Made by a program: the position numbers and the translations under genes. A model generated the notes under the pieces. The model was given only the letters and a program-made list of their open reading frames with translations, did not search any database and was not told the DNA's origin. 55,955 bases of DNA from a virus: positions 1 through 55,955 of the IMG/VR virus record IMGVR_UViG_3300044904_000040. One strand, written 5' to 3'. Positions 10,968-55,955 of this stretch are shown piece by piece. The stretch's first letter is position 1. Each line of letters starts with the position of its first letter.

Positions 10968-13900
10968 CTATCTCGGCGGCATCGGTGCTTGAGGCGGTGC
11001 TGCCGGCTGCATCCCGGCGGACGGTGCCGGTCCCGTAGGCGTAGGCTGCTGCTGCGTCATCGGCGGGACAATCTGCGCCGACTGGTGTAGGGCGGCCAAG
11101 GCCTGCCCTGCCGCATCTTCGACCTTTCCGCTGGAAAGCTGTTTCACCAGCCCCGTCACGTTCTGGCCAAGCTCTTGGATCTGCGAGCCGACGTGCGCGT
11201 TGAAGGAAGCCTCGGCCTTCTGCACCACGCCAAGCACTTTGGCCTCGAAGTCCAGATGGATCTTTTCCAGATCCACGGCGCGATCGGCGCCCTTGTCCTT
11301 CAGCGCCATCGCCGCGGCCTGCAGCTTCATTGTCAGGTCTTTGATCTGGCCGTCCATCGACTGCAGCAAGGCGGCAACCTGCGGCGTGACATCCTTCATG
11401 TCCGGCGCCAACAGGTGAGGCGGCAGGGTCTTCGCCAAGCGGGCGGCGATCTGCTCGGCTTCCGGCCAATCCTGATTCTTCGCAATCAGGTCGGCAACCA
11501 CGGCCGCGGTCTGCGGCAGGGCGCGGACGAACGCCATCATGCTCTCGGCGGCTTCGATGCGCTTGGTGGCGAAGCTCGGCCCGATTGTGACCGTCACCCC
11601 GTAGCGGCCCATCGTGGGGTTGAAAATCTTCTGCATCTTGCCGGTCTTCGGGTCCGGCTTCTGGTCGAAGGCCTTTGGTGCGTGGGGATCCAGCATCACC
11701 TGTTCCTCGCCGCCGTCTTCGCGGAGGATCGTGATCATCCGGCGCGTGTCGATCACCTTCGGGATCAGGTCGATGAACACGTCGCCCTGGTGCTTCAGCG
11801 TGCGGCACAGGTTGTCCATGTAGTGAAAGCTACCCATGTCGCTGGTCTGGCGAAGCTCACGCAGCGCACGGCCGCTCTCGTCCGTCACGCGCTCCTGCTT
11901 GGTGCTGTCGAAGCGGATGCCCGTGGTGGCCATCATGTCCTGCGCGGCGCTCTGCTTCAGGCTCTCCCATCCGGCGCTCGGCATCGACGGCGGCTGGCGC
12001 TGCGGCGCCGGCAAGGGCTGGCCCGCAAGAGTCCGCGGCTGATATTCGAGATAGGCGTAGGACTTCGTGTTCGCGTTGTTCCACTTGTCCTCGTGGCCTT
12101 CGAACTGGCCCTCGGCGCCGACGAACGGTGCTTTCGGTGCCAGGGCGATCGTCTCCATCTCCATGGTGTTGTGCGTCGGGATCATCGAATACCCGGCGAG
12201 AAACAAGTGGGAGTCATTCCCGACCTTGATGCACTTCACCGGGACTGATGGCACGGCAGTGACAGAGACGATGCCGAATCTCTTGGTGCGCCGCCAGTGG
12301 GTCGGGCCACCGCCGGTCTGGCGTGCCTTCTTTCGAGACAGACCAAACACGCTATCGTCTGGGCCGCATGAGAAGAAGAACCGATCTACTGAAATGCATT
12401 GACATAGATTTCCGCCAGGAAAGGCGGCAAGGCGCGGGGCAATCTTCTGAATTGCGACCTTGATACCAAGCCCCCGCAACAATTCTGAGAACCCTTCGCT
12501 CAATGCAGGGATCGTCGTCGTAAAAGCGCACTGGCGAAATTTCGTCACATTGCCATCGGAATCCATCAGGCCACGCAGAAGGTCGAGCCGTTGCTGCCGT
12601 GATGCACGCTGGTAGATGGCCGGGATGTGCTTGTTTCGGATGAGCCCAAGGCGCGCGAAGTGCTTCCGAATGCCGAACGCCGACAACTTCGAAGCCTTCT
12701 CGCCATACTTCCGCGCCTCGCCAACATGAAGGCCACGGGCGATCAGGATGTCTCGAACTTCCTCAACGTCCATGTCGCCTGGAGTCAACTCGATATCGCG
12801 GCTGGTGCCGTCTCCAAGCCACCAACCGAGGAAGTAAGGATCAATCGGCAGATCGGCATCAGGCATGTCGAGTGGCTTGGGCGAGAGGATGAATTGAATT
12901 TTCGGGTTCAATTCAGCAGTCGGAACAGTCTTGGTTTTCCAATCTCGGCGTCCTTCCTTCATGTTTGTCCGCTCTTCGACCGTCCACAGATGGTCTTTGT
13001 CAGCTACGATGGAACTGCCGTCATCGAACTCCACGCGGAAGCAATCTCGGTGCAGCAGCACCGGACTGGTTCCAACCACGTCCACAACAGCGCCAGTTTC
13101 ATCGAACACCCGATCTCCGGCGGCAATGTCGAGCATAGTTGTCCAACCACTTGGGGTCGGGATTGGCGTGTCGAGCGCGAGCGGGGAGGAATAGTTGTAG
13201 GAACGCTGTGCATCCTTGGCATTGCGGATGATGCCGGACAGCTTCAGTTTGCCCTCGATGTCTATTTCATTGCCGACAACGCGGAATATCGGAATCCATT
13301 TGCCAGCCCACTCGCGGCGCTCAAGGATCTCCACGGCGGTCAGCTTATACCACATGACCGTTGGGACTTCGGCATCGCGCTCCTTCAGCACCTTCAGCTT
13401 GCCGGACTTGATCGCCGCGTCAACTTCATCGGAAAGGTCTTCGCGGAACCCGACATGGCCATTCGAAAGCTGAACAAGTTCTTTGGTCTTGTAAGTAATC
13501 AGGAAGTATTCAGCGACACGGACGTTCTTTTCGTCAATCCAGTTCTTGTATGTGTCGCCGGCCGCGCTCTCCGTCCATGACATTGGATCCGCATCAGGAT
13601 AGGTTTCTTCGAACTCGCCCCGCGGGATCAACTCGGTGATGAAAGCAAACCGCTTGTCGGAAGTGTCGGGCTCCTGGGAGGTCGGGTCCACATAGACGGA
13701 AAAGGTGTTGCGGATCCGCTTGATCACGATGGTCTGGTCCATCGAGTCCGGCGACTCATATTCCGTCACCATCCGCCAATAGCCCCAACCGATCGATGCG
13801 GCGCTGTCGAAGGCCGTGTCATAGGCCACATCGGCGTGGCTCTCGCGTTCGAAATAGCGGATCAGGCCGCGATACATCTTCGCGACTTCGGGATCTGACT

Positions 13901-14318
13901 TGTCGCCAACCGGGGACACATTGATCGCCGGCCGGTTGTTCCGCTGCTCATTCACCACCTGATTGACGAAAGTGGGGATCTTGTTGATCGTCATGCAGGG
14001 GCGGAAGTCGTTGTTCCGCTGTGCTGCGATCGTTGCTGGCCATTGGTCGCCGGCCTTGAACTTTAGGTCTTCCAGCCCGGCGGCGCGGTTCTCGCTCTCA
14101 GCGGACGCCGCGGTTTCGAAGTGCTTGCGGGCTTTTGCCAGGATCTTCTGGTCCTCCTGCTCATCCTTCTCTTGGCCGAGCATGATATCCTTGGCGTCAT
14201 CCTTGCCGCCCTTTCCCCCTTTGTCCTTCACCATGATCGGGACGCGGTTCATGCCCGCTGTCACCTTCGGCAGTTTCAATCTGCCGTTGTCCTTCGGCGC
14301 GCGGGGGTCTTGGACCAT
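10968..14318 (-). CDS. Portal protein (P22 gp1-like) interrupted by an intein
   Basis: 1116 residues encoded; removal of the intein (379-717) leaves a 777-residue portal. The N-extein carries portal features (FKAGDQWP, RPCMTINKIPTFVNQVVNEQR, FDSAASIGWGYWRM). The junction region IIRNAKDAQRSYNYSS joins TMEMETIALAPKAPFVGAEG, restoring the conserved YNY-x3-x-E-x-E...LAPKAPF segment with the expected spacing. The C-terminal part is helical and ends in a Gln/Pro-rich tail. A portal is needed in 12 copies in every virion, so efficient splicing must occur. SD-like GGAAGG precedes ATG 14318. Confidence 0.9.
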   Translation of the reverse strand: MVQDPRAPKDNGRLKLPKVTAGMNRVPIMVKDKGGKGGKDDAKDIMLGQEKDEQEDQKILAKARKHFETAASAESENRAAGLEDLKFKAGDQWPATIAAQRNNDFRPCMTINKIPTFVNQVVNEQRNNRPAINVSPVGDKSDPEVAKMYRGLIRYFERESHADVAYDTAFDSAASIGWGYWRMVTEYESPDSMDQTIVIKRIRNTFSVYVDPTSQEPDTSDKRFAFITELIPRGEFEETYPDADPMSWTESAAGDTYKNWIDEKNVRVAEYFLITYKTKELVQLSNGHVGFREDLSDEVDAAIKSGKLKVLKERDAEVPTVMWYKLTAVEILERREWAGKWIPIFRVVGNEIDIEGKLKLSGIIRNAKDAQRSYNYSSPLALDTPIPTPSGWTTMLDIAAGDRVFDETGAVVDVVGTSPVLLHRDCFRVEFDDGSSIVADKDHLWTVEERTNMKEGRRDWKTKTVPTAELNPKIQFILSPKPLDMPDADLPIDPYFLGWWLGDGTSRDIELTPGDMDVEEVRDILIARGLHVGEARKYGEKASKLSAFGIRKHFARLGLIRNKHIPAIYQRASRQQRLDLLRGLMDSDGNVTKFRQCAFTTTIPALSEGFSELLRGLGIKVAIQKIAPRLAAFPGGNLCQCISVDRFFFSCGPDDSVFGLSRKKARQTGGGPTHWRRTKRFGIVSVTAVPSVPVKCIKVGNDSHLFLAGYSMIPTHNTMEMETIALAPKAPFVGAEGQFEGHEDKWNNANTKSYAYLEYQPRTLAGQPLPAPQRQPPSMPSAGWESLKQSAAQDMMATTGIRFDSTKQERVTDESGRALRELRQTSDMGSFHYMDNLCRTLKHQGDVFIDLIPKVIDTRRMITILREDGGEEQVMLDPHAPKAFDQKPDPKTGKMQKIFNPTMGRYGVTVTIGPSFATKRIEAAESMMAFVRALPQTAAVVADLIAKNQDWPEAEQIAARLAKTLPPHLLAPDMKDVTPQVAALLQSMDGQIKDLTMKLQAAAMALKDKGADRAVDLEKIHLDFEAKVLGVVQKAEASFNAHVGSQIQELGQNVTGLVKQLSSGKVEDAAGQALAALHQSAQIVPPMTQQQPTPTGPAPSAGMQPAAPPQAPMPPR
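12168..13184 (-). mobile_element. Class 3 (WCT) intein with LAGLIDADG endonuclease, inside portal
   Basis: 339 residues, portal positions 379-717. It starts PLALDTPIPTPSGWTTMLDI, so position 1 is Pro, not Cys or Ser, and it ends SMIPTHN before Thr 718. Trp 445 (block B, KDHLWTV), Cys 696 (block F, VKCIKVG) and Thr 715 (block G, THN) make the Trp-Cys-Thr set that defines class 3 inteins, in which the internal Cys starts splicing. Two LAGLIDADG-type motifs (YFLGWWLGDGT near 496-505; LLRGLMDSDGN near 580-590) show a homing endonuclease domain. Boundaries come from comparison with the expected uninterrupted portal sequence. Confidence 0.88.
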
Positions 14319-42932: not shown

Positions 42933-44060
42933 CTAGCCTGGAACCCACGTTATCGTAGGTGCGGTGCCAGTATAGGTTATAGTTACGGTATCAGTCTGCA
43001 AAAGCCTTACGCCACCAGACACGATCCCGGTGTTGATGGTGGTGCTGGCTCGGGTGAAGTCGATTTGCGACACGGTGCCGCCGGTCACATAGAGCGTGCC
43101 CTGGGCGCCGGCGACGTAGGCGAACGGGGAGCCGGTGGGGGTGACGGCCACCATGGCTGAGCCCGGGCCGGACGGGCCGTTGATGGTCATGTTGGGGCCG
43201 GTCCAGATGATCCAGTTATCAAACTCGGTCGGCTGGATGTTCTGCTGGTTGCCGGTCAAGTTGCTGGTAACGGTGATCCCGGTTTCAGCCGGCTCTGTGT
43301 TCAGTGTGCCGCCGGTGCCGCCGTTTGGGACGTGGAAAGAGTTGTAGCCGCCAAAGCCGAAATCAAATCCGGTTACAATGCCGTGCATGTGGCCAGCATC
43401 AGCAACGGTGAGGGTGTCAGTTTGCGCAAGTTCACTGCCGCCGGATACGCCCAACGTGGCGGCTATGCCGATGCTGGCAGTGGTGACGCGATTGGCGGCC
43501 GTGCCGCCCATGTTGTCCGCGCCCGCGGATACCCGGCCGCGCTTATCGGGGAGGTTGAATGTGGTGCTGCCGTCGCCGGCGCCGTAGGCCGTCTGGATGA
43601 CGGCGAATAGCGTGGCATAGGTGCTGCGGGAGACAGGCGCACCAGTGCAGAGCAACCAGCCTGGGGGAATGGCAGATGCCGGTCCTGAATAGGCCTTCTG
43701 CTCGCCGGTCAGCACCGCAACGCCGCTGGCCAAGCCTTGTCCGCCTGTGGTAGCGGAAATATCGCCAATGCCGGTGATGCCGTTTTCCGTCCAATATGGA
43801 TTGGTCGGCGGGTCGCTATCGGTCGGCGGCGACAGGACGAATGTGTAAGCATTGCCCTGGATCAGCCAGATATCGCACTGGCCGTTCGAGTCGAGAATGA
43901 TCGGGTTCGTGTTCGGTGTGCTGCCGGTGTATTCGGTATAAGTCTTCAGCTTGGTCGTGGTGCCGGACAGATAGGTGAACAGCTTGCCGCCGGAAAGCGG
44001 GGCGCCGTTCTGATTGAACTGGAACTTGGGAAGCGGAGCCTGGAATACGGGGGTTGCCAT
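42933..44060 (-). CDS. Tail fibre with phage collar domain
   Basis: 375 residues from the ATG of GTGATG 44060. The N-terminal ~90 residues (LPKFQFNQNGAPLSGGKLFT) resemble the attachment part of short fibres. Residues about 125-190 form a phage tail collar domain (PPGWLLCTGAPVSRSTYATL; GAGDGSTTFNLPDKRGRVSA), followed by HMHGIV. The C-terminal part is Gly/Thr-rich beta. Likely receptor-binding or collar fibre. Confidence 0.85.
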   Translation of the reverse strand: MATPVFQAPLPKFQFNQNGAPLSGGKLFTYLSGTTTKLKTYTEYTGSTPNTNPIILDSNGQCDIWLIQGNAYTFVLSPPTDSDPPTNPYWTENGITGIGDISATTGGQGLASGVAVLTGEQKAYSGPASAIPPGWLLCTGAPVSRSTYATLFAVIQTAYGAGDGSTTFNLPDKRGRVSAGADNMGGTAANRVTTASIGIAATLGVSGGSELAQTDTLTVADAGHMHGIVTGFDFGFGGYNSFHVPNGGTGGTLNTEPAETGITVTSNLTGNQQNIQPTEFDNWIIWTGPNMTINGPSGPGSAMVAVTPTGSPFAYVAGAQGTLYVTGGTVSQIDFTRASTTINTGIVSGGVRLLQTDTVTITYTGTAPTITWVPG

Positions 44061-45394
44061 CACTCACCTTCCATTTCGAGCGCGTAGCCAAAGCTGTGCA
44101 ATTCTGGCAAACTTTTGATCACTTTGTCACCAATATCGGTTCGATACATTTTATTGGGGAAGTGGATCTTCTTTATCGCTCCATACACTTTTTTCTGCGC
44201 CTGGGCGACGGTTTTACCAAGGCCGCTTGTTACCAGAACGTATTCGCCAGTGGTCTGGTGGCCGAGTCCTTCAACAACCTTTCCGTCTTTCATCATCGGG
44301 CCTTTCCCCATCATGACGCAGGCCGGGTGGACCTGACGCCAAACCGAGTCCAGCCCGGTGATCGGGTTGCCTTCGACCATCTCGGGGGTGCTGGCGTTGT
44401 AGGGGTAGCGCGGCTGGGCCATCACCACGCCGATCGCCACGTCATTCGACACGCGAAGGCTGTCTTTGCCGTCCAACAGATCCCGCATCCATTGCGCAGG
44501 ATCTCCGCGGTGCGATGCCACCTGAATATAGAACGCCGGCCAGCCGCAACGCACGGTGAACTCGAACGGCCACGCCTTGCCCTTGTTGTCGATGCCAACG
44601 CCGACGGCAAAGTCGCCGCGGTGGCCGAGCGCAGCCAGGGCCGGCGCCATCGGCTTCAGGCACTCGTCCGCGAGCTTGTCAGCTTCGACATACTGACAGA
44701 CCGAGCCCTGCTCGCCGCAGTTCGGCCCGATGTCGCCGTTCATCAGGGGTTTGTGTTCGAAGCAAATCTGCCAGCGTTCGGGGAGAAAGCCGTCGGGTCC
44801 GAACCAGCCGGACACGCCGAATTCACAGGCCATGTCGATCTTCTCCTGTAGCATACATTGCCCCTTGAGGGTCGCGCCGCAGGCGATCTGGCGTTGGATC
44901 CAGCCAACCATGTCAGCCGGGTCTTTGCCCACATAGGTCAGGGATTTGTCGTCGGTGTCGCCCATCGGTTTGAACACCCATGCGCGATCTGACTTCCGGG
45001 CGAAGGCCTCGGCATCCTTCATCGAATTGAACATTTGATAGGGCGGCAACTCCATGCCAGCCGCCTTCATCGAGTCCATGCCAGCCGATCGGTTGATCTC
45101 AAGGTTGGCGCTGGCCACCGTCGGGGCAAAAATCTTGTATCCAAAATCTGACCTGTAGCGGTCGAAATCGTGGAGGAACTTGAAGTTGCCGCTAGTCCAG
45201 ATCAGGCCGTCTTTGGCCCAAGCCATGTGCGGCTTCCAATCATCCACGATCGTGATGCCCTTGAACCCCTCGCCGTCGCGTAGGGACTTTCCCGGCTTCG
45301 TCCATCGGAACCAGCGAACTTCGTGGCCGGCGGCGGCGCACCGCAGCGCGAAGTCCAGGCCAAGCGCCTCGGTATCGACCAGCAAGATTCTCAC
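44060..45394 (-). CDS. PurD-like ATP-grasp ligase
   Basis: 444 residues from GTG 45394 (GTGA overlap; GGAGG nine bases upstream). N-terminal Rossmann-like start (RILLVDTEALGLDFALRCAA). ATP-grasp part: NRSAGMDSMKAAGMELPPYQ, AWVFKP, EKIDMACEFGVSGWFGPDGF. PurD-specific pattern: CFEHKPLMNGDIGPNCGEQG (compare DHKR..D.GPNTGGMG), and PFEFTVRCGWPAF at the metal-binding site (compare EyNvRfGDPE). It could make a phosphoribosylglycinamide-like or other amide bond. The normal Asn and Asp-Pro-Glu are altered, so the substrate may differ. Lies between ejection genes and the collar fibre. Confidence 0.8.
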   Translation of the reverse strand: MRILLVDTEALGLDFALRCAAAGHEVRWFRWTKPGKSLRDGEGFKGITIVDDWKPHMAWAKDGLIWTSGNFKFLHDFDRYRSDFGYKIFAPTVASANLEINRSAGMDSMKAAGMELPPYQMFNSMKDAEAFARKSDRAWVFKPMGDTDDKSLTYVGKDPADMVGWIQRQIACGATLKGQCMLQEKIDMACEFGVSGWFGPDGFLPERWQICFEHKPLMNGDIGPNCGEQGSVCQYVEADKLADECLKPMAPALAALGHRGDFAVGVGIDNKGKAWPFEFTVRCGWPAFYIQVASHRGDPAQWMRDLLDGKDSLRVSNDVAIGVVMAQPRYPYNASTPEMVEGNPITGLDSVWRQVHPACVMMGKGPMMKDGKVVEGLGHQTTGEYVLVTSGLGKTVAQAQKKVYGAIKKIHFPNKMYRTDIGDKVIKSLPELHSFGYALEMEGE

Positions 45395-45750
45395 TTCGGT
45401 TCCTCCCAATCGACCGTGCCGTATCGGTCGATTCCCATCTCATGAGCGATCATGTGGTCGATCAGGGCGGCGAAGCGATGCTGACGGATATAGGGGGCGC
45501 CGGGTGCGTCTCCTGGCTCGCCGTCGCCGGTGAAGGCCATGTCGAAGTCGTCAACGGCCTGCTGCGTGACGCCGGCGCTCTCGCAAAGCTTCATCTCGAT
45601 CAATTCGTGAATGGCGATCAAGAACTGGTCGTGCTGCGGCATTTCCTCGTTGATCTGGATCATGATCACGCCGTCGGGGGTGGTGAACCAGTCGCCGTCC
45701 GTCCGGTAGCGCATCTCGTCGGCCGGCAAAGTCTCGATCACGATTCTCAT
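45391..45750 (-). CDS. Conserved phage hypothetical protein with HELIE motif
   Basis: 119 residues. FLIAIHELIEMKLCESAGVT followed by VDDFDMAF, PGDAPGAPYIRQHRFAALID and a final W gives a pattern HEliE..LC...Gi....vD.FD......PYhreH..A found in many phage proteins. The HEL.E helix and later His could bind zinc, but it is not a standard HExxH protease. Coupled by ATGA to the upstream gene and GTGA to the PurD-like gene. Confidence 0.75.
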   Translation of the reverse strand: MRIVIETLPADEMRYRTDGDWFTTPDGVIMIQINEEMPQHDQFLIAIHELIEMKLCESAGVTQQAVDDFDMAFTGDGEPGDAPGAPYIRQHRFAALIDHMIAHEMGIDRYGTVDWEEPK

Positions 45751-48506
45751 TGCTGCTGTCCTTTGTCGCCCATGATCATCTGCAGCCCTGGGTAAAGCAC
45801 GAATGGGGAAAGCGCGCCGCTGGGTTGTGCTAGGGATGGCTTCACAATCCCCACCATCTGCTGCTGAAAGCCTTTGTTCATCACGGCCGCGCGCGCCAGC
45901 GGGCGGATGCCGGCGGCGGCCATGAAGGCCGCGGCCTCGCCGTAGTCGCCTTTGATCAGCGATCGTGCGGCGGCCATTCCAGCGAAGGACACATCCAGCA
46001 CGCTCAAGCTCTCCACGGCGCCAAATTTCGTCGGAGTCTGGAAGGATCTTTCGAAATTGTTGGCGGCATCAGCGATCACCTTTAGGTTGCCGCCTAATGG
46101 CTTGCCGCGGTTCTGCAGGGCGGCCAGCCGGCGGGCACTCACTTGATGCGTGGCATCATTCAGAGCCGTCTCGATGTCGTAAGACTTGGCAATATTCACC
46201 CTGGCAGTGCGAACGTCATCCAACAGATGTCCCTGATTGGTCTTGGCGAGATTTCGTTCAATCAGTTCTTCCATAGCCTGTGCTGCGCCGCGTTGGGCTG
46301 TTCCGAGGGACAGGTCTTTGTAGGCCACCTGTTTGCCGCCGGGCGCGGATAGATTGGATACCGAATCCTGCCGCAGAGCCTTGATCCGTTCGATCATAGC
46401 GGTTGGACTGTAGGATGGCTTGGCCACCAGGTCCTTGAGCATCGCCTCCAATTCGGGGCTTTTCATCTGGCTGTATTCGGAGCCAGCAATTCGGGCCTCG
46501 CGTGCCAGCTTCGAAATATCGTCTTGGAATGTCTGGTCGATGGAGAAGGGCTGCTGGATGGACTTCAGCCGGCCATAGGCCAACCCTTGCATGTCGCGGT
46601 AATGCTGCAACATGTCCTTGTCGATCAAAGTCTTCTCGGGGAAGCCAAGCTCTCGGGCCGCAAGGCCATCGGTTACGGCCTGATTCTTCGCGCTGGCGAA
46701 CTGCTCCATTTTAATCTTGCCGCCAGCGCCGGCCATGATGTTTGGCAGGCTCACCTTGGCGATACTGCCTTCAGTGGCCTCGGCCGGGGGCAGGACATAT
46801 CCCACGCCGATCGCATCCTTGGCCGCTTGGCTGGGATTGATCTTGATGGCGTTGTAGAACATTCGCGGTCCGGCAAATGGCAGGACCGATGCGAGCGCGC
46901 CGGCAGTGAACTGCACCCATGGCGGGGCGCCCGATTCCTTGGCGATCGTGGAGGCTGTTGCTGAGAGGCCGCCGGCCACCATCTGCACATTGGGTTTTTC
47001 GGAAAGCGATACGGCAACGGCCTTCACCAGCGGATTGATGGCGGTTTCTGCCAGTGCTTTCGCTGCGGCTGCGCCGCTGAGTGCGTTGCCGACGCCTGCG
47101 CCTGCTGCCTGGGCTACACGCTCCGTCGCTGTCTGGGGGCGCGGTAGGCCAAGATGGTCGAGCGCCATGTCGGTGATCGTGCCAAGGGTGGCGCTCTGCG
47201 GCAGGCCAACATGGGGGGCGATCGCGTTGTAAGCTGTGGTGCCAAGGTCGGTTGCGCCGGCGAGCGCCAGTCCAGCCAAAGCGCCTGGGGGCCCAGCCAA
47301 CGCGCCACCGATGCCGCCGGCTGTCGCATAGGGAGCAAGCCCGCGCCCCAACGATCCGGCCACGCGGGCGGCGGTGGTGCGGCCGACATCTTCCGGGGCG
47401 CCCTCGGTTATGCCGCCCGGCGTTATTGGTGGGGCTGTGGGCATAGGCTCGGGGACGCCCATGATGAACTGGTCGCTGGGCGGGACTTCGGCCGCCTGGG
47501 CGCCTGGGATCAACGCATTGCCAACGGACGATGCGATCCGGCCCATCAAGGATCCGCCCTCGCCGGGCTGCGGCTGCACGTCGGATGCGGGAATGAATTT
47601 GTGGGGCACGACCTTGCCAGTGGTGCCGACAATCTCGGTGGGGTTGCCTTCGCCCTCTTTGCGGATCGCCACGGGGATCATGTCCACGCCGGCTTCCTGC
47701 GCCAGCAATGCGCGGTGGCGGCCGTCTTGATCTGTGACCTGGGCGGTGCTGCCATCCACCTTCAGGTTGAGGGAGGGGATTTCTTCCACCTTATCGCCGC
47801 GGGCAACCGATTTGGCGATCGAGCGGCCAGCCGGGGTTTGGAAGGCGTCTTTGCCGAGCGGGGGGGTCAGCGCAAGATAGTCCTCCGGTGGCATATAAAC
47901 GACGTCGGTTCCTTCGTCGGCCTCATGCTCCCGCAGTGCGTAATCGCTGAACTGATATTTGTCGGTGCCGATCCGCGGGCCGCCGCCGGCCTTGCCCTGC
48001 CACATCACCGACGCCGGCCGTTCGAATACCCGCTTAAACGAGTCCTCGGCCTCCGACACCGGCACATTTTCGTCTGTGAGGCGCTTGCGGAGCGAGGGAT
48101 ACTGTTCGCGCAATTCCTTGTCGGCAAAGGCGAACTGCGCGTCGGGACTGTTCGGGTCCAGGCCTTCCTTCTTCGCGAAGGCCTGCAGTTGATCCCATCG
48201 CTCGTTGTGGTGCTGGAACAGGCCGTGGCTGGTGCCATTGTCGCCGGTGTCCAGCGGGTTGCCGCCCGATTCCCGCATCACATTCTGCGCAACGCCGGCG
48301 GCGCCGTTGGGCGAATATCCAAGAGCGATCCCCTTCTGAACAAGCTGGTCGTAATCCAGCTTCATCGGTTTGGCCGGCGCGGCGGGACGGGGGGCCGGTG
48401 TGGGGGCGGGTGTCTGCGATGGCGGCCGGACGGTCACAGTCGGCGCCGAGAACATGACCGGGGCGGTCGGCATCGGCTCGGGCTCGCCAAGAATGAACTC
48501 GCTCAT
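45747..48506 (-). CDS. Large virion protein with phage tail lysin domain and ParB-like segment
   Basis: 919 residues. Near residues 50-160 a phage tail-type lysin/transglycosylase domain: GAAGVAQNVMRESGGNPLDT, GTSHGLFQHHNERWDQLQAF, FADKELREQYPSL. Near 255-285 STAQVTDQDGRHRALLAQEA-GVDMIPV resembles a ParB/sulfiredoxin-type DGRHR motif. The centre has Gly/Ala-rich hydrophobic segments (GRGLAPYATAGGIGGALAGP), and the C-terminal third is helical. This is the make-up of injected proteins that breach the cell wall. ATGA-coupled at both ends. Confidence 0.8.
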   Translation of the reverse strand: MSEFILGEPEPMPTAPVMFSAPTVTVRPPSQTPAPTPAPRPAAPAKPMKLDYDQLVQKGIALGYSPNGAAGVAQNVMRESGGNPLDTGDNGTSHGLFQHHNERWDQLQAFAKKEGLDPNSPDAQFAFADKELREQYPSLRKRLTDENVPVSEAEDSFKRVFERPASVMWQGKAGGGPRIGTDKYQFSDYALREHEADEGTDVVYMPPEDYLALTPPLGKDAFQTPAGRSIAKSVARGDKVEEIPSLNLKVDGSTAQVTDQDGRHRALLAQEAGVDMIPVAIRKEGEGNPTEIVGTTGKVVPHKFIPASDVQPQPGEGGSLMGRIASSVGNALIPGAQAAEVPPSDQFIMGVPEPMPTAPPITPGGITEGAPEDVGRTTAARVAGSLGRGLAPYATAGGIGGALAGPPGALAGLALAGATDLGTTAYNAIAPHVGLPQSATLGTITDMALDHLGLPRPQTATERVAQAAGAGVGNALSGAAAAKALAETAINPLVKAVAVSLSEKPNVQMVAGGLSATASTIAKESGAPPWVQFTAGALASVLPFAGPRMFYNAIKINPSQAAKDAIGVGYVLPPAEATEGSIAKVSLPNIMAGAGGKIKMEQFASAKNQAVTDGLAARELGFPEKTLIDKDMLQHYRDMQGLAYGRLKSIQQPFSIDQTFQDDISKLAREARIAGSEYSQMKSPELEAMLKDLVAKPSYSPTAMIERIKALRQDSVSNLSAPGGKQVAYKDLSLGTAQRGAAQAMEELIERNLAKTNQGHLLDDVRTARVNIAKSYDIETALNDATHQVSARRLAALQNRGKPLGGNLKVIADAANNFERSFQTPTKFGAVESLSVLDVSFAGMAAARSLIKGDYGEAAAFMAAAGIRPLARAAVMNKGFQQQMVGIVKPSLAQPSGALSPFVLYPGLQMIMGDKGQQQ

Positions 48507-50842
48507 TGCTTCACCATGTTTTTCAAGCTGTTGATCGGCTTCGGGTCATTGAATCCTTGATCCAATGCCTCCCGGAACGCCGCCTTGGCATTCGGAAATT
48601 CGACATGTCCGCTCGGGCCGTCTTTGTCGAAATAAGTCATCCGCCATTTGCCAGGGGTATCAAGGTCTTTTGATACCAGAACGGCGCGTTCTGTACCTGG
48701 CTTGCTGAATTTCAGCGGAGCGCCTTCTTCGGCCCATTTTTCAGCCAAGGCTGTTTTTCGTGCAATGTTGGCCTGAGCGGCCTCAAGCAGTTTTAGAAAT
48801 TCTTCATCAGTCGTGCCTTTGATGGCCGCCGCTGTCTCTGATGTCTCCTTCGGCTCGCCCGCCTTCGCAAACATATCCCTTTCAGGTTTGGTGGCTGGTT
48901 TGGCGAACAGGCCTTCATCCGGCTTCGCCTGCTCTGCCTTCGCGGTCAGCCCGCCGCGGCCGGCTTGATCTCTGGCCGCCTGGGCCTGCTTTGCTGACGG
49001 CTCCATGCCGGGCATGGCGATCTGGTTCGGGTCGTTGACGATCGTCGGCTCGGGGGCGGCCGGCGCGGCTTTCTCCACCGGCATTTCACCGAACAGGTCG
49101 GCGCCGGTGGGGCGCGGCGGCTCGGGCGTCTCGCTGAGATCCGTCGACTCCGAATGATCCCACTTGCCTTCGTTCTGCGCGCTGATATCGGCCAGGGCAT
49201 TGACCGGCTTCGGGGCGGGCGGGGCTTCCTCGGCATTGGCCGGCAACTTCTTCGCGGCGGCGACGAACGCCTTGGTGACGGAGGCCATGCTCTTGCCGGC
49301 GGTGAGGTCTTTGGCCGCCTGGGTCAGAAGATCCGACATGCCGCCGCGTTTGGTGGCCTCGGCTTCCAACCGGGCAATCAGCATTTCGTTCTCGGCGCGG
49401 GCCTTGATGTTGCCTTCGGTCGCCAGCTTGTTCCCGGCTTCGGTCAATGCTTCTTCGCCAGTGACGGCCGCCTTGAACACGTTCTTCTGTGCCCGCAAGC
49501 TGCGCAGCGTGTTGTCCAGCACGCGGGCACGGGGCACGAACAGCGGGACTGCCTTAGCCGTGCTGCCAGTGCCGAACAGGTTGCCCTGGCCTTCATCGCC
49601 CGGGCCGGCCTGAAGGAACCCGGATCCCTGAATGTCATCGATCAACAGCTTGGTCTGCTGGTCGGTGAGCGACTCGGTCTTCTGCAGCACCTTCATGATC
49701 GCGGTTTGCTGGGCCGGATCCTTCACCATCTTGCCGACAAGGATCCCCTGCTCGGGACTCACGGCGCCGGTCTTCACCATTGACCACGCATCGTCGCCAA
49801 GGGACGCCAGGGCGCGGCCTTTCTGCACCATCGGCTCGTTCGGGGGCAGTTGGGGCAGCTTCAGATTGGGGCCGAACTCTTTGGCCGAACGCAGGATGTT
49901 CGCGGCATCCATTGGCGTGCCGCTGCCTTCGGTGATGTTCTGGTAGGCGCCAAGCGCCTTCACGTAGTCGGCCGGGTATCCGTCGGCTTCCTTGAAAACC
50001 TTGGCGTGAAGCTCAATCCCCTCCTGGCCACTGGCCTCGGCGCGCTTGGCGAGGTCAGTTCGCTGGTGGCCGTTCACCACGATGTTCTCACCGGCCTTGT
50101 TCTGCCAAACTACGATCGGAGAGGCGAGGTTCGGTTCGAACACGGTAGACGCGCTCAAGCGGCCGGTGACGCCGCGGGCGTCGGACGCCTTGTATTGCAT
50201 GAGGTCCGGGCGAAGGGTCAATTGATCGGGCCGGAACTTCACGATATCAGCGGCCGGCGGTGGCTCGGCTGGGGCCGCGGGCGCTGGCTCTGTAGGGGCT
50301 GCGGCCGGGCCCGGGGTGGTTGGTGCGGCTTCAGTCGCCGGGGCTGCTGGCGTGGCCAGACGCGGGGCCGCAGGGGGCGGTGCGGCGGGCTCGGCCGGGG
50401 TGAAAGTCAACTCGCGTGGCGGCGGTGCTGCAAGGGCTGGTTGGCCGGGCTGTGGCGGGCGATTGAACTGCGGCGGGACGTTGCCGACTCGTTCGGCCTC
50501 TACCAGCGGCGGCAGCACAGTGGGTCGGCCGAGGGACTTTACCGCACCGGGGAACAGAGAGATCGCCGCTTGGAGGTCTTGGACGTGCTGGGGGTTGTTG
50601 GGGTCGAACTGGTCGATCGGCCGGGTCCAACCGCGGATTGGTCCGCGAAGGATCTCTGGCAACGCCAATCCCATCTCGCCGGTCTTCACGTCCCGGCTGA
50701 TTGGCAGGATTTGTCCATACTCGGTGCCGGGCTTGTCCTCCAACAGCGGACGCTGCTCGGGCGTGAAGGTCAACGGCGCGGCTGTGAAGGTCAACGGCGG
50801 CGGGGCGCTCGGGGCGGGCGTGAAGGTGAGTGCATCGGCCAT
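48503..50842 (-). CDS. Large virion protein with ParB-like domain
   Basis: 779 residues. N-terminal repeats of LTFTPA and Pro/Ala-rich linkers (to about 195). Then a DdrB/ParB-like nuclease-type domain: IVVWQNKAGENIVVNGHQRT, DLAKRAEASGQEGIELHAKV, YPADYVKALGAYQNITEGSG (about 230-310). The rest is helical and acidic, with a small C-terminal beta module (WRMTYFDKDGPSGHVEFPNA). ParB-like domains of this kind occur in very large phage and mobile-element proteins delivered into the cell. TGATG coupling upstream. Confidence 0.75.
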   Translation of the reverse strand: MADALTFTPAPSAPPPLTFTAAPLTFTPEQRPLLEDKPGTEYGQILPISRDVKTGEMGLALPEILRGPIRGWTRPIDQFDPNNPQHVQDLQAAISLFPGAVKSLGRPTVLPPLVEAERVGNVPPQFNRPPQPGQPALAAPPPRELTFTPAEPAAPPPAAPRLATPAAPATEAAPTTPGPAAAPTEPAPAAPAEPPPAADIVKFRPDQLTLRPDLMQYKASDARGVTGRLSASTVFEPNLASPIVVWQNKAGENIVVNGHQRTDLAKRAEASGQEGIELHAKVFKEADGYPADYVKALGAYQNITEGSGTPMDAANILRSAKEFGPNLKLPQLPPNEPMVQKGRALASLGDDAWSMVKTGAVSPEQGILVGKMVKDPAQQTAIMKVLQKTESLTDQQTKLLIDDIQGSGFLQAGPGDEGQGNLFGTGSTAKAVPLFVPRARVLDNTLRSLRAQKNVFKAAVTGEEALTEAGNKLATEGNIKARAENEMLIARLEAEATKRGGMSDLLTQAAKDLTAGKSMASVTKAFVAAAKKLPANAEEAPPAPKPVNALADISAQNEGKWDHSESTDLSETPEPPRPTGADLFGEMPVEKAAPAAPEPTIVNDPNQIAMPGMEPSAKQAQAARDQAGRGGLTAKAEQAKPDEGLFAKPATKPERDMFAKAGEPKETSETAAAIKGTTDEEFLKLLEAAQANIARKTALAEKWAEEGAPLKFSKPGTERAVLVSKDLDTPGKWRMTYFDKDGPSGHVEFPNAKAAFREALDQGFNDPKPINSLKNMVKQ

Positions 50843-52689
50843 CAGGCGGCCGGGGCGTTATACGTCGCCGCTGGGACAAGCTGGTTGCCGCGCTTCATCC
50901 ATTTGCTGCCGTCGCTGGCGTTGAACACACGGCCGTCCGGGTCGCCTTCGTGACCTGGGGGCACCGGGTAAGCTGTCGGCGCCGCCGATGCCGCCGGCGC
51001 CGATGGTGCTGCCGGTTGCGTTCCGGCCGCCGGCGCGGTGGGGGGCGCCGGCTGCGTGCCGCTGCGCATCAACGGGATAAATGTGTTGTTCGGGCCGGGC
51101 ACACCAACGCGGCCGTCTGGCGCCTGGATTGCATTTGGATGCGCGGCTTTGGCAGCGGCCAGATCATCGCCGCCTCTCATCGGCACCGGCCCGGTTGGGG
51201 CAGTCGGCTTGTCCGGACCGTGGGTTTGAACTCCGGGGGGAGTGCCGTGGACGTCCTTTTTGATAGCATCCACTTCCTCGTTGTAGCCCTTGATCTTCAA
51301 CCCCATGTCGGCTTTGAGCGTGTCCACGATGGCGGGGATCTGGTCCGCTGTGGTGCCTGGGGGGATCAATGACAACGCGAGGTTTCGGGCGCTGTCAGTC
51401 GATGCTTGGGCGCCAGTTGAACCGCTCAACACCTTCGCATATTGGTCGAGCGCCGTGATCAACTGCGCCTCGTATGGCAGCACGTCAGTTCCGCCGGTCG
51501 CAGTCGAACCAGTCCGCGCCCATTTGGTGAAAAACGGCATGTGTAGCGGCTCGGGCGTCTTCGGGATCATCGTCACCATCTTGTCCAGCGCAGCGATCGT
51601 GCCCTTCTCGTAGCCTTCGGCCGCATTGCGAATGGCAGTGACCTTTCCAAGCGACGCGGTATCAGCCTTCAGCGTTGCCCGGCCTTCGATATAATCGTTC
51701 ACATCATGGCCGTTCGGGTGATCGGCATCGACATCGGCTTTGGCAAGTTTGGTCGCTTCCTCCAACACTTGATCGATCATGTATTGGTTGCGGGTGCCGC
51801 CGGGCATCTGGCCCGTGCGCAGATAGGTCCGTGCGCTAAAGTCCGCGGCATCTGGCGACAACACGGCTGCGGCCTTCTTAACTCCCTCTTTTGCCTGTGC
51901 GACGCCGCCGGCGCTGGCCGCTGCATCACGGTTGGTGACGTCACGACGGATCTGCGCACGCTGGGCCGGTGAAACCGGATACCCTTGCTTGGCTTCCTCA
52001 TCGGCCACTTGCTCAGATGTCAGCGTTTCGATATCGCGCGCCTTATCGCTAGCCATGGTTTCGGCCGGGGTTTTCGGTGGTTTTGCCGCCCGGGCCTCGG
52101 CGTCGGCCGTCCTCAATTCAGCGTTCTTCTCCTGCCAGGACAGATTCGCACGCGCCCTGGCGGGGTCGAACTTCGGGGACATCTGCGAATGGAAATCTGG
52201 ACCGGCAACACCTGATGCCTGGAATGCATCAAGCTGGTCCGTGTAATAGGCTTGGGCCTGCTGCTGCGCCTCATCAGGGGAATGTCCATCGTGAATCGCT
52301 TGGTCGTAAAGCGAGAGAGAGGTTCGGCCAATCTCCATTGCTTCCTTGGTCGCGGCTGACAGCAATTTCGATTTTTGGGCGAATTGCTTATCCTGCATAC
52401 CCTGGAGCTGCACGCTCTGATTCACACCAGCCTGCATGAGCGCCATCCCGGCCTGCGGATTGATGGCCAGGATCTCCTTCATGGCGTTGGTGGTTGGCTG
52501 TCCCGTGGCAGGATCGACAGCGCCCGGCTTTTTCAGAATGTCGTTCAGCGCATTTGTCCGGGCGGCCACGTCCTTCTGCTGCTGCAGTTGCATGGCGTCT
52601 TGCTGGATGGCCATCATCTTCTGCGGATCGGGGCCGATCTGCATCTGCGTGTTGGTAGACATCGGGATTTGGGCGAAAACACCGCTCAT
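50842..52689 (-). CDS. Ejection/internal virion protein
   Basis: 615 residues from ATG 52689 with AGGGA upstream; the earlier start overlaps the previous gene. Gln/Met/Ala-rich helical N-terminal half (QKMMAIQQDAMQLQQQKDVA; FDPARARANLSWQEKNAELR), a helical middle and a Pro/Ala-rich C-terminal third. Composition and position match P22 gp16/gp20-like DNA-ejection proteins; there is no catalytic motif. Confidence 0.7.
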   Translation of the reverse strand: MSGVFAQIPMSTNTQMQIGPDPQKMMAIQQDAMQLQQQKDVAARTNALNDILKKPGAVDPATGQPTTNAMKEILAINPQAGMALMQAGVNQSVQLQGMQDKQFAQKSKLLSAATKEAMEIGRTSLSLYDQAIHDGHSPDEAQQQAQAYYTDQLDAFQASGVAGPDFHSQMSPKFDPARARANLSWQEKNAELRTADAEARAAKPPKTPAETMASDKARDIETLTSEQVADEEAKQGYPVSPAQRAQIRRDVTNRDAAASAGGVAQAKEGVKKAAAVLSPDAADFSARTYLRTGQMPGGTRNQYMIDQVLEEATKLAKADVDADHPNGHDVNDYIEGRATLKADTASLGKVTAIRNAAEGYEKGTIAALDKMVTMIPKTPEPLHMPFFTKWARTGSTATGGTDVLPYEAQLITALDQYAKVLSGSTGAQASTDSARNLALSLIPPGTTADQIPAIVDTLKADMGLKIKGYNEEVDAIKKDVHGTPPGVQTHGPDKPTAPTGPVPMRGGDDLAAAKAAHPNAIQAPDGRVGVPGPNNTFIPLMRSGTQPAPPTAPAAGTQPAAPSAPAASAAPTAYPVPPGHEGDPDGRVFNASDGSKWMKRGNQLVPAATYNAPAA

Positions 52690-52690
52690 A

Positions 52691-53425
52691 TCAGAACATC
52701 CCTGCAAGGCTAGACATACCGCCAGCGCCGCCGCCGCCTCCGAACAATCCAGACAACATGCTCATCAGGCCATTGCCTCCGCCGGCTGCGCCAGCACCTG
52801 CCGCGGAAGTGCCCTGCTGCTGCTGCTGGGCACCTGTGAGATTGTTCAGCGCCGAGGACATGATATTGCCCTGCGCCATCGAATTGCCTGCCGCAGCCAG
52901 TCCCGAATTAATCGTGTTCTGGCCAACCTGATTGGCCATGTTGGCGCCAAACGAGCCGAGACTGTTGGCTGCGGTCTGGCCGCTACTCGCAACGCCGCCG
53001 AGATTGCCGAGATAACTCTGCCATCCCTGGTTTGCGAGCCCGCTGCCATAGGATTGAAGCGCCTTCAAGGCATTTCCGCCGCCGACGCCGCCGGTGTTTG
53101 CAGTGGCGTTCTGGACGCTGTTCAAGCCCTGCTGAAGCTGGAATTGATAGCCTGGGGATGCCTGGAATGATGCGGGGTTGATGGACCCGGCGCCGCCGCT
53201 TGTTCCAATGCCAAGCGCCGATTGAAGGGCGCTGAAAGCGTTCTGCCCTCCGGTGATGTAGGGTTGCAGGTTCCCAGCGGTTTGATTGTATTGATTTTGC
53301 TCAATATTTGAGGCGTTCAGAAGGGCGCCTTGCTCATCCTTCGCAGCGCCTTTGGCTGCATTTGAACTGATAAGAGCGCTGCCGACTGTGCCAAGCGCCA
53401 TCGCGCCCATTGTGAAAAACGGCAT
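52691..53425 (-). CDS. Ejection protein, gp7/gp14-like
   Basis: 244 residues behind GGGGGA. N-terminal hydrophobic segment (MGAMALGTVGSALISSNAAK) then Gln/Asn/Gly-rich helices (NASNIEQNQYNQTAGNLQPY, ALKALQSYGSGLANQGWQSY) and a Gly-rich C terminus. This is a familiar type of small pilot protein (DNA transfer protein) that precedes the larger ejection proteins. Confidence 0.75.
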   Translation of the reverse strand: MPFFTMGAMALGTVGSALISSNAAKGAAKDEQGALLNASNIEQNQYNQTAGNLQPYITGGQNAFSALQSALGIGTSGGAGSINPASFQASPGYQFQLQQGLNSVQNATANTGGVGGGNALKALQSYGSGLANQGWQSYLGNLGGVASSGQTAANSLGSFGANMANQVGQNTINSGLAAAGNSMAQGNIMSSALNNLTGAQQQQQGTSAAGAGAAGGGNGLMSMLSGLFGGGGGAGGMSSLAGMF

Positions 53426-53531: not shown

Positions 53532-54110
53532 TTAAACCGCCACTAGCCTCGACGCCATCTCATCATCTATGTAGCCGGACAGGTCGCCGCCGCGGGCCTG
53601 CACCGCTTTCCATACCCGGACCATGTCAGCCTGGATGTTCAACCGCTGCATGATCTCGATCTGCGGCAGGCTAATTCGCGCGCCGGGCATTAGGTGTTCC
53701 AAGCAACCAGCGACGACGTGATTGTTGGTGAGGTCTGCGAAGTTCACGCGCATAACGCCATCGGCCGCACTTACGGCGCCCAAGCGTTCGTGCATCAGGT
53801 CACAGATGTTGGACCGGCGGATACCGATGCCTTCGAGCGAGGTTAGGACTTCGCCGGCGGGGCGTTCGATGATCAAAACCTGGGGGTGCCATTGGTCGAT
53901 AATCTCGCGGATCTTGAAGCTGAACCCGGAGTCCGAAATGCCGCACCATTTCTGCCGCGCCGAATCCCAAAGCGATGCGGCGGCCTGCCATGTCCGATAA
54001 TCTGAGGACGGTTCATGGTAGCAGATCGAGCCGTCTACCGTGCTGCACATCGCTGCAAACCAAGCCGTCCGCGAGCGCGGCAGGCCGGTGATCAGGTAAG
54101 GAAGCGCCAT
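53532..54110 (-). CDS. Sulfotransferase-like P-loop protein
   Basis: 192 residues from ATG 54110 (TGATG overlap; the GTG at 54113 is possible). MALPYLITGLPRSRTAWFAA has the 5'-phosphosulfate-binding loop of sulfotransferases (P-R-S-x-T-x-W). QVLIIERPAGEVLTSLEGIG resembles the 3'-phosphate motif (R-P-x4-xS). The remainder (RVNFADLTNNHVVAGCLEHL-MPG) fits this family. Length is shorter than typical enzymes. It might modify a virion or host surface component using PAPS; substrate unknown. Confidence 0.7.
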   Translation of the reverse strand: MALPYLITGLPRSRTAWFAAMCSTVDGSICYHEPSSDYRTWQAAASLWDSARQKWCGISDSGFSFKIREIIDQWHPQVLIIERPAGEVLTSLEGIGIRRSNICDLMHERLGAVSAADGVMRVNFADLTNNHVVAGCLEHLMPGARISLPQIEIMQRLNIQADMVRVWKAVQARGGDLSGYIDDEMASRLVAV

Positions 54111-54451
54111 CACGACACCAAAGTTCCGGCAAGGGGTGAAACGGTCACGACGCCCGTCGTGTCCGCGAGGAATTGATAGGTGCCGCCGGCGCCCAACACC
54201 GGCAAGGCGACGTCTTGATGGGTGTTGGGGGCGATGGGCTCGGCGTTCATGAAGCAGTTGCCGACGCCAGGACTTCCGGCGGACGGAACCGCATAGGCGG
54301 TCACTGCATGGCCAGCGACGTCGGTGTTCGTCATTCGCACCACGCCGCCGCTGAGAATGATGGTGGCGGGAGTGCCCGGCACGGTGAGCAACGATACCGC
54401 ACCGGCGGTCAACTGCGTGGGATTGAAAAGCGTGGCGGTTTGCACGGGCAT
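54110..54451 (-). CDS. Small beta-rich virion protein
   Basis: 113 residues, MPVQTATLFNPTQLTAGAVS. Repeated beta strands with Gly/Thr (ATIILSGGVVRMTNTDVAGH; GGTYQFLADTTGVVTVSPLA). GAAGGA precedes the ATG. Looks like a small decoration or fibre-associated protein. TGATG-coupled to the sulfotransferase-like gene. Confidence 0.7.
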   Translation of the reverse strand: MPVQTATLFNPTQLTAGAVSLLTVPGTPATIILSGGVVRMTNTDVAGHAVTAYAVPSAGSPGVGNCFMNAEPIAPNTHQDVALPVLGAGGTYQFLADTTGVVTVSPLAGTLVS

Positions 54452-54683: not shown

Positions 54684-55955
54684 TTACGAACCGTATTCTG
54701 GTGCGATATTTTGAATTACTGATTGAATATCTGAATAGCTATTCGCTGAAACGTAAAGAGTCCAGTTTCCAGATGTCAAATCGAAGTTTGTATTTGCCGT
54801 ATCGGCCGCCACGCAAGTATCTTTATTCACCCACATAATGTTGTTTGATGTTCCGGCTATTGAAATAAACCAACGCATAAGGCTAGTGCTTGCAAAATTA
54901 GTCCGAGCGCCATATCCAGGCGAATTATTTGCCGCACTAATCAATGCAGTTCCGCTTCCAATATTGTAATATTGAACCAAATTACCATCATTTTGCGATG
55001 TCGCCAAATAGCCCTGAGAACCACCATTTTTTGATAATCCCAAGCTGAGTCCAACCGTGGTCGCTGACCGCCTAAGTCGTCCAACAAACGCGGTAAGCTG
55101 ACCTGCATTGAATGTGAAGGTGCCAACGCTCGGATACCAATTAGCTGCAGCCCCACCAAGAGTAATTGAAACCGGGGTGCTAGATATTGCGATTGGAACG
55201 ATTTGACTGAATGGTGGAGGCGTTGGTGCTGTGATCTGAACCTTCGCCGCCGGCACATCGCACCATATCGTTGACACGCCTGCCAACGATATCGCCGCGC
55301 CACCATTGCTGGATGACAGCACCGTGGTGCGCGCGATACCGCTCGGATTGAGTTGCGTGATGGTGCCGATGCCGGTTTCCCAATTCACACCATCCCCTGA
55401 GATGATCGCATACCATGTCGTGTTGCCGGCGCCGATCGCGGAGAACGATTGATATTGCGCAACCGGGCCGGTGCAGATCACGGTGCCGGTGCCGGTGGTG
55501 TTGGTTTTCTCCATCGCCCGATCGGCCAACACCAACGCGCTTGCCCCGATCAGTGGGATCCTGCGATTGCGCAGTGCCAGCGAGCGAATGCCGGCAATCG
55601 TGTCCTCGTCGGCAGCCTGGGCGCGAAGTAGCGCAAGCTGCGGGGGAATTTCTGGGGAAGGGGCGGGCGTCGGTGGTGCCGCACCGATAAATGCAGCGGC
55701 GATAAGAGCGCAGGTAGTTCCGCTCGCGGTGACGCCAATAGGGAGAGATGTTTGTGGAGACGTATAATATGGCGATATCGTTAGAATAAGATACCCCGAA
55801 CCTAAAGCCCCAAGTGTATTGGAACTCTCAAGTATAGTTGAGCCTGCCGGAACTTGAGCGGTAGGAAGTGACCCGTTAGAATTGCAATATGCGGATATTA
55901 CAAATTCCGATGAACCGGAAGTATTTATCGTTGTCGAGATGTTGCCACTTGATCC
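54684..55955 (-). CDS. Tail fibre / receptor-binding-like protein, C-terminal part (start lies at 542)
   Basis: Joined across the terminal repeat to 1-542, this makes one ~550-residue protein. After the beta N-terminal part, PPTPAPSPEIPPQLALLRAQ and LALRNRRIPLIGASALVLAD lead to a second beta domain (AQYQSFSAIGAGNTTWYAII, SGDGVNWETGIGTITQLNPS, GIARTTVLSS) that looks like the start of many fibre proteins. The C-terminal ~200 residues are Ser/Asn/Thr-rich and encoded by markedly AT-rich DNA (54690-55170), as expected for a recently exchanged receptor-binding tip. The 424-residue track within the window has no stop. Confidence 0.8.
   Translation of the reverse strand, partial: GSSGNISTTINTSGSSEFVISAYCNSNGSLPTAQVPAGSTILESSNTLGALGSGYLILTISPYYTSPQTSLPIGVTASGTTCALIAAAFIGAAPPTPAPSPEIPPQLALLRAQAADEDTIAGIRSLALRNRRIPLIGASALVLADRAMEKTNTTGTGTVICTGPVAQYQSFSAIGAGNTTWYAIISGDGVNWETGIGTITQLNPSGIARTTVLSSSNGGAAISLAGVSTIWCDVPAAKVQITAPTPPPFSQIVPIAISSTPVSITLGGAAANWYPSVGTFTFNAGQLTAFVGRLRRSATTVGLSLGLSKNGGSQGYLATSQNDGNLVQYYNIGSGTALISAANNSPGYGARTNFASTSLMRWFISIAGTSNNIMWVNKDTCVAADTANTNFDLTSGNWTLYVSANSYSDIQSVIQNIAPEYGS
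55795..55955. repeat. Terminal direct repeat, right copy
   Basis: Matches 1-161 except at 55827 and 55829. See the left copy: it shows the genome is circular or circularly permuted. Confidence 0.95.

Follow-up and report, generated by a model that had tools for sequence, protein, structure and literature searches.

A PurD-like ATP-grasp gene among the virion genes of a P22-like podovirus probably encodes a ligase other than GAR synthetase

Why should a podovirus carry a relative of the purine enzyme PurD among the genes for its own virion? The window, i.e. the whole 55,955 nt stretch analyzed here (IMGVR_UViG_3300044904_000040), has a 161 nt direct terminal repeat at positions 1-161 and 55795-55955; as the repeat is common to both ends, the record probably represents a complete genome. 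It encodes P22-type coat, portal, head-closure and ejection genes, and is apparently the complete genome of a P22-like podovirus. Its portal gene (10971-14318) is split by an insert that resembles an intein and contains a LAGLIDADG domain. A first-pass annotation had described a full-length ATP-grasp ORF of 444 residues that is translationally coupled on both sides and carries the motifs HKP...GDIGPN.GEQG and TVRCGWPAF. We found both motifs as described (EHKP..NGDIGPNCGEQG and EFTVRCGWPAF in the translation), and the coupling is confirmed by 4 nt overlaps; we add that the gene is on the minus strand. The 444 codons run from a GTG start at 45394 to the stop at 44062-44060. The start shares GTGA with the upstream 119-aa ORF, whose stop occupies 45393-45391, and the end overlaps the downstream fibre gene via GTGA or TGATG (4 nt). 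A scan for promoters and terminators gave a result at chance level. The gene and its neighbors are as follows.

42933..44063, minus strand: downstream fibre gene; N-terminal domain of ~85 aa common to 40 of 54 loci, C-terminal Collar domain in the window
44060..45394, minus strand: PurD-like ATP-grasp gene; 444 aa, GTG start, TGA stop
45391..45750, minus strand: 119-aa "HELIE" protein; translationally coupled upstream, in 19 loci
45747..48506, minus strand: gp16-like ejection protein candidate; 919 aa, Phage_lysozyme2 domain
50842..52707, minus strand: gp20-like ejection protein candidate; cluster 2, 40 loci
52691..53425, minus strand: gp7-like DNA-ejection protein; phrog_598
53532..54113, minus strand: 193-aa P-loop protein; homologues weakly sulfotransferase-like

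The relationship to PurD extends over the whole protein. In Pfam, GARS_C was matched with E=4e-14 and GARS_A was sub-threshold; phmmer against solved PurDs gave E=7e-21. Identity to solved PurDs is about 18-24%. No family for this protein was found in a PHROGs search. The structure comparison proposed in the first-pass annotation was carried out on an AF2 model built from 53 homologues (pLDDT 94.8, pTM 0.92; loop 147-149 poorly modelled), in which the ATP-grasp fold and the full-length PurD fold with its N, A, B and C domains are present. The model matched A. aeolicus PurD in Foldseek with an E of 3.7e-30, and its VIA Z scores were 31.7-35.3 to 13 GAR-synthetase entries and at most 23.5 to all other families; the match to GAR synthetases covers the whole length and lies well above those to PurT, PurK and biotin carboxylase. 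The dN/dS values were 0.031-0.046 (four finite values from six homologue pairs that are 82-98% identical), showing that the gene is under strong purifying selection. Together with the GARS_C and phmmer matches, these values argue that the ORF does not exist by chance.

Nevertheless, the protein scored 78.7 bits against NCBIfam TIGR00877, the purD equivalog, whose cut-off is 288; its homologues L018, L047 and L081 scored 83.1, 85.1 and 111.8 bits, respectively. GARS_C was recognized in all 53 homologues and GARS_N in two of them. We compared the alignment columns with those of 20 cellular PurDs, guided by the known Aquifex PurD binding residues (PMC8880213). With window numbering second, K143=K142, E192=E191, K214=K215, R287=R282 and E100=E99 are kept, and K103->R102, E185->Q183, D212->E213 and E292->A287 are changed. 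Of the three ATP lysines two are retained, along with one ATP glutamate and the arginine that binds the carboxylate. The ATP contacts K142, E191 and K215 are intact, and K->R102 and E->Q183 are conserved substitutions. Replacements affect the glycine-amine Glu, the Asp in GDPE and the Asn in EFN, as well as the whole GGMGAYSP segment and GxGGREHA loop. The EFN..GDPE motif has changed to T280 (from N) and W285 (from D); in the metal-binding E-x-N, E278 is invariant and N has given way to an equally invariant T280, a Thr that could still bind metal. The signature PS00184, R[LF]GDPEx[EQIM] as given in PMC3261824, is absent: the window protein reads RCGWPAFY, and G[WY]P is found in 53/53 homologues. 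The altered segments are listed below.

44537..44563, minus strand: E278-F-T-V-R-C-G-W-P286, replacing PurD E-F-N-x-R-x-G-D-P(-E); positions computed from the 45394 start
44705..44758, minus strand: E213-HK...GPN-C-GEQG230, replacing PurD D-HK...GPNTGGMGA
44945..44971, minus strand: K142...K150, ATP-site lysine and lid loop, invariant in the 53 homologues; loop 147-149 of low confidence
45341..45376, minus strand: D7...R18 (DTEALGLDFALR), replacing the phosphoribosyl-side loop GxGGREHA of PurD

The first-pass annotation had noted an altered metal-site motif, which we also see, but the change is not confined to the metal site, as the glycine-binding residues and the N-terminal loop on the phosphoribosylamine side are replaced as well. 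Its proposal that the altered motifs imply a new substrate is well supported by the sequence, including the TIGR00877 score.

In the alignment of 53 homologues, E278, T280, R282, G284 and P286 are invariant and position 285 is W or Y; the pocket is where the invariant residues are concentrated (K142, K150, Q183, E213, K215, E278, T280 and R282). The replacement motifs E-x-T-x-R-x-G-[WY]-P, EHK and TGExG are kept even in phage homologues of only ~41% identity. As the 53 rows were partly gathered using the EFT motif, its invariance in them is biased; cleaner evidence comes from 20 copies covering the motif in an independent set derived from the adaptor gene, from a further group of aligned relatives, and from the cellular relatives described below. 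All 20 adaptor-derived copies have E-x-T-x-R-x-G-[WY]-P, and the further relatives read the same. Because the replacement residues are conserved across the phage family, the pocket appears to have been remodelled and since maintained for a different substrate. That substrate should not be glycine plus phosphoribosylamine, since the glycine-amine Glu and the GxGGREH loop are replaced by other conserved residues, and the protein probably ligates another acid to another amine.

Relatives of the gene number at least 572 in IMG/VR and at least three in 84,980 genomes, the latter being a lower bound because the scan used two peptide patterns alone. One of the three lies in a prophage-like locus with phage context on a 462-kb Rhodanobacteraceae contig (ZG21-1, L098). 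Among 200 Pseudomonadota genomes, the phage family was found in the prophage-bearing one alone; the other matches listed scored no higher than 149 bits, and those of the top-scoring ones that were translated show ordinary PurD motifs. In the phage collection, the sole clear homologue is in MW202796.1, at a place where no gene is annotated. The other matches there are 22-29% identical, and several, on short contigs, are annotated as or resemble ordinary bacterial purD. Apart from shorter apparent N-terminal extensions in L039, L074 and L028, a ligase fused to a virion protein was not seen among the homologues; the longest frame (L182, 17193-19622) is a homologue split by an intein at the active-site motif GPN|TGE.

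The placement within the virion operon, for which the first-pass annotation had suggested a search in related phages, is conserved in many of them, a large group of podoviruses from the environment. In most loci the ligase follows the last ejection gene (gp16-like) and precedes a fibre gene; fibre genes with the common N-terminal domain are found within 5 kb downstream in 40 of 54 loci, mostly within 100 nt. The upstream neighbor is usually the last ejection gene itself, with the 119-aa HELIE gene intervening in one clade. When contigs were chosen by their adaptor gene, the ligase was present in the fetched stretch of 25 and elsewhere in the contig of seven more, counts that are not independent as several contigs are near-copies. 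Wherever a checked adaptor-bearing contig extends beyond the last ejection gene, the ligase is present, and the inspected contigs without it end before its spot. In L047 and L050, which belong to a different podovirus type, the ligase is again in the virion module, with head genes on one side and a tail-tube-like gene on the other (neighbors named by eye).

The neighboring proteins are less constant. The HELIE protein has an invariant HE..E and PG.....PY...H and a confident model that is weakly zincin-metalloprotease-like, with no significant match in the PDB; as it occurs in 19 loci alone, we rejected it as an obligate metallopeptidase partner in general. The Collar domain was found in three of the 11 related records checked and was rejected as a partner because most of them lack it. 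Accordingly, the neighbor named "collar fibre" in the first-pass annotation is indeed a fibre gene, but "collar" is incidental and the conserved part is the N-terminal domain of ~85 residues. The window copy of the P-loop protein has no Pfam match; its L001 homologue matches Sulfotransfer_3 with an E of 0.02. In related phages, this slot adjoining the ejection genes is occupied by exchangeable enzymes such as Asp/Arg hydroxylase, GNAT and cupin/SET proteins; L075 (2762-3625) and L079 (2877-3719) have a SET-domain protein with a cupin-like N-terminus there. As no one neighboring protein is common to all contexts, no target is singled out.

The altered motifs also occur in cells: in plasmid proteins of Halarchaeum and Roseomonas and in three of 385 alphaproteobacterial genomes (L242-L244). 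The alphaproteobacterial look-alikes lack K150 and do not lie among virion genes. Two of these genomes have the look-alike with a methyltransferase, an HDO-type iron redox enzyme (Haem_oxygenas_2) and a SET protein, and the third with at least the methyltransferase; in L244 (2781-6446) and L243 (6435-10194), the genes for the PurD-like ligase, an MTS methyltransferase, Haem_oxygenas_2 and SET proteins form a cassette. Sphingomonas has a split look-alike copy adjoining a SET gene. An unrooted tree separates PurD (100/100), the cellular look-alikes (100/96) and the phage proteins (90/93). The phage proteins and cellular look-alikes together make up an ATP-grasp family that is related to PurD but separate from it. 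In pathways for small peptides, HDO enzymes are known to accompany ATP-grasp amino-acid ligases (PMC13185094), and an amide-forming role is therefore the natural guess. Haloarchaeal PurD-like proteins without the GDPE Asp were judged not to be GAR synthetases in 2011 (PMC3261824). Our literature search found no paper on a PurD-like virion gene of phages and no characterized member of the family, which appears uncharacterized.

We consider it likely that the gene encodes an ATP-grasp carboxylate-amine ligase of PurD-fold descent that is not a GAR synthetase, is made with the virion proteins and most probably modifies a late product. We infer catalysis, late expression timing and target of the ligase as follows. 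Mg-ATP would be bound by K142, K215, E191 and E99; the carboxylate substrate, positioned by R282 together with E213, would be phosphorylated, and an amine would attack the resulting acyl phosphate to give an amide, ADP and phosphate. This acyl-phosphate-then-amide chemistry is established for PurD and goes with the ATP-grasp fold. Catalysis could be weak or altered because the putative metal ligand is changed from N to T and the adenine hinge from E to Q. Made with virion and ejection proteins, the ligase would act on a late product; our first guess is a virion or ejected protein, favored because the position of the ligase is constant while the accessory enzymes vary, and failing that a small molecule or a component of the surface. 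The conserved position may also reflect late co-expression alone. More specifically, and tentatively, it may be a virion-module peptide or amide ligase that belongs to the core genes of a large podovirus group and links an amino acid, or some other acid, to a fibre or an ejected protein, or is itself ejected, with the cellular members of the family acting in small biosynthetic cassettes.

Other explanations account for part of these observations. An ordinary phage-borne purine gene, i.e. a GAR synthetase raising nucleotide supply, would fit with the nearest solved structures being all PurD and with GARS_C in 53/53 homologues, and viral purD, as named in surveys of snow and vent viruses, is counted as a metabolic gene (PMC11097641, PMC12043954). 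This is highly improbable for the window gene: the score is far under the equivalog cut-off (78.7 versus 288 bits), GxGGREH, GDPE and the glycine-binding Glu are replaced, GARS_N is unrecognized in 51 of 53 homologues, and the gene lies among virion genes in a window where no other purine gene was recognized with the searches run; besides, haloarchaeal proteins without the GDPE Asp had already been judged non-GARS (PMC3261824). A catalytically dead ATP-grasp protein with a structural or scaffolding role in the tail or the ejection machinery would suit the location and the N->T and E->Q changes at the ATP and metal sites. However, the invariant residues cluster in the pocket, and one homologue (L182) has its intein at a pocket motif; inteins usually occupy functionally important sites. 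We regard this explanation as improbable.

A tailoring ligase for a small molecule or the host surface, which together with the exchangeable enzymes of the operon would make or cap a compound or surface group, e.g. against superinfection, is unlikely to a lesser degree. In many phages the exchangeable modifying enzymes (hydroxylase, GNAT, sulfotransferase-like, cupin/SET) directly precede the ejection genes, the cellular relatives lie in biosynthetic-looking cassettes, and a cell-wall target has been proposed for the amidoligase/GATase genes that other phages carry (PMC10580990). On the other hand, the ligase is constant where the exchangeable enzymes are variable, and the LUZ24-like genes are in the early region (PMC3890496) whereas the window gene is in a late module.

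Automatic annotation based on GARS_C can mislabel the gene as a viral "purD" auxiliary metabolic gene, which its motifs and context contradict; a PurD-like virion gene should not count as a purine-metabolism gene. The gene also points to an uncharacterized-looking ATP-grasp family with viral and cellular branches, and offers an entry point to the question of whether podoviral fibres or injected proteins are covalently modified by the phage itself. Compared with known systems, the window protein shares with PurD (TIGR00877; PDB 2yw2, 2qk4 and 1gso) the whole-length fold, GARS_C, most ATP-site residues and the carboxylate-binding Arg, but it is encoded in a virion operon and is devoid of GxGGREH, EFN..GDPE, GGMGAYSP and the glycine-amine Glu. 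Among cellular proteins, Halarchaeum WP_123078225 has EFTxRFGYP, FEHK, STGEMGT and LExxR as in the phages. The alphaproteobacterial PurD-like proteins and Roseomonas WP_207415351, whose gene adjoins a type III PKS, share the altered motifs on a branch of their own (100/96). Haloarchaeal Hlac_1553 and rrnAC0307, compared by their published description (PMC3261824), are cellular proteins without the GDPE Asp and with a divergent N-terminal loop. Amidoligase PF12224 had no match in 11 records, and the control genomes gave no match either. The ATP-grasp, amidoligase and GATase modules of LUZ24-like phages and phiEco32 resemble the present case in that a phage encodes an ATP-grasp protein whose substrate is unassigned, but the protein of the LUZ24-like phage UFV-P2 is a 291-aa ATP-grasp encoded in the early region (PMC3890496), whereas that of the window is a 444-aa PurD-type protein encoded among ejection and fibre genes.
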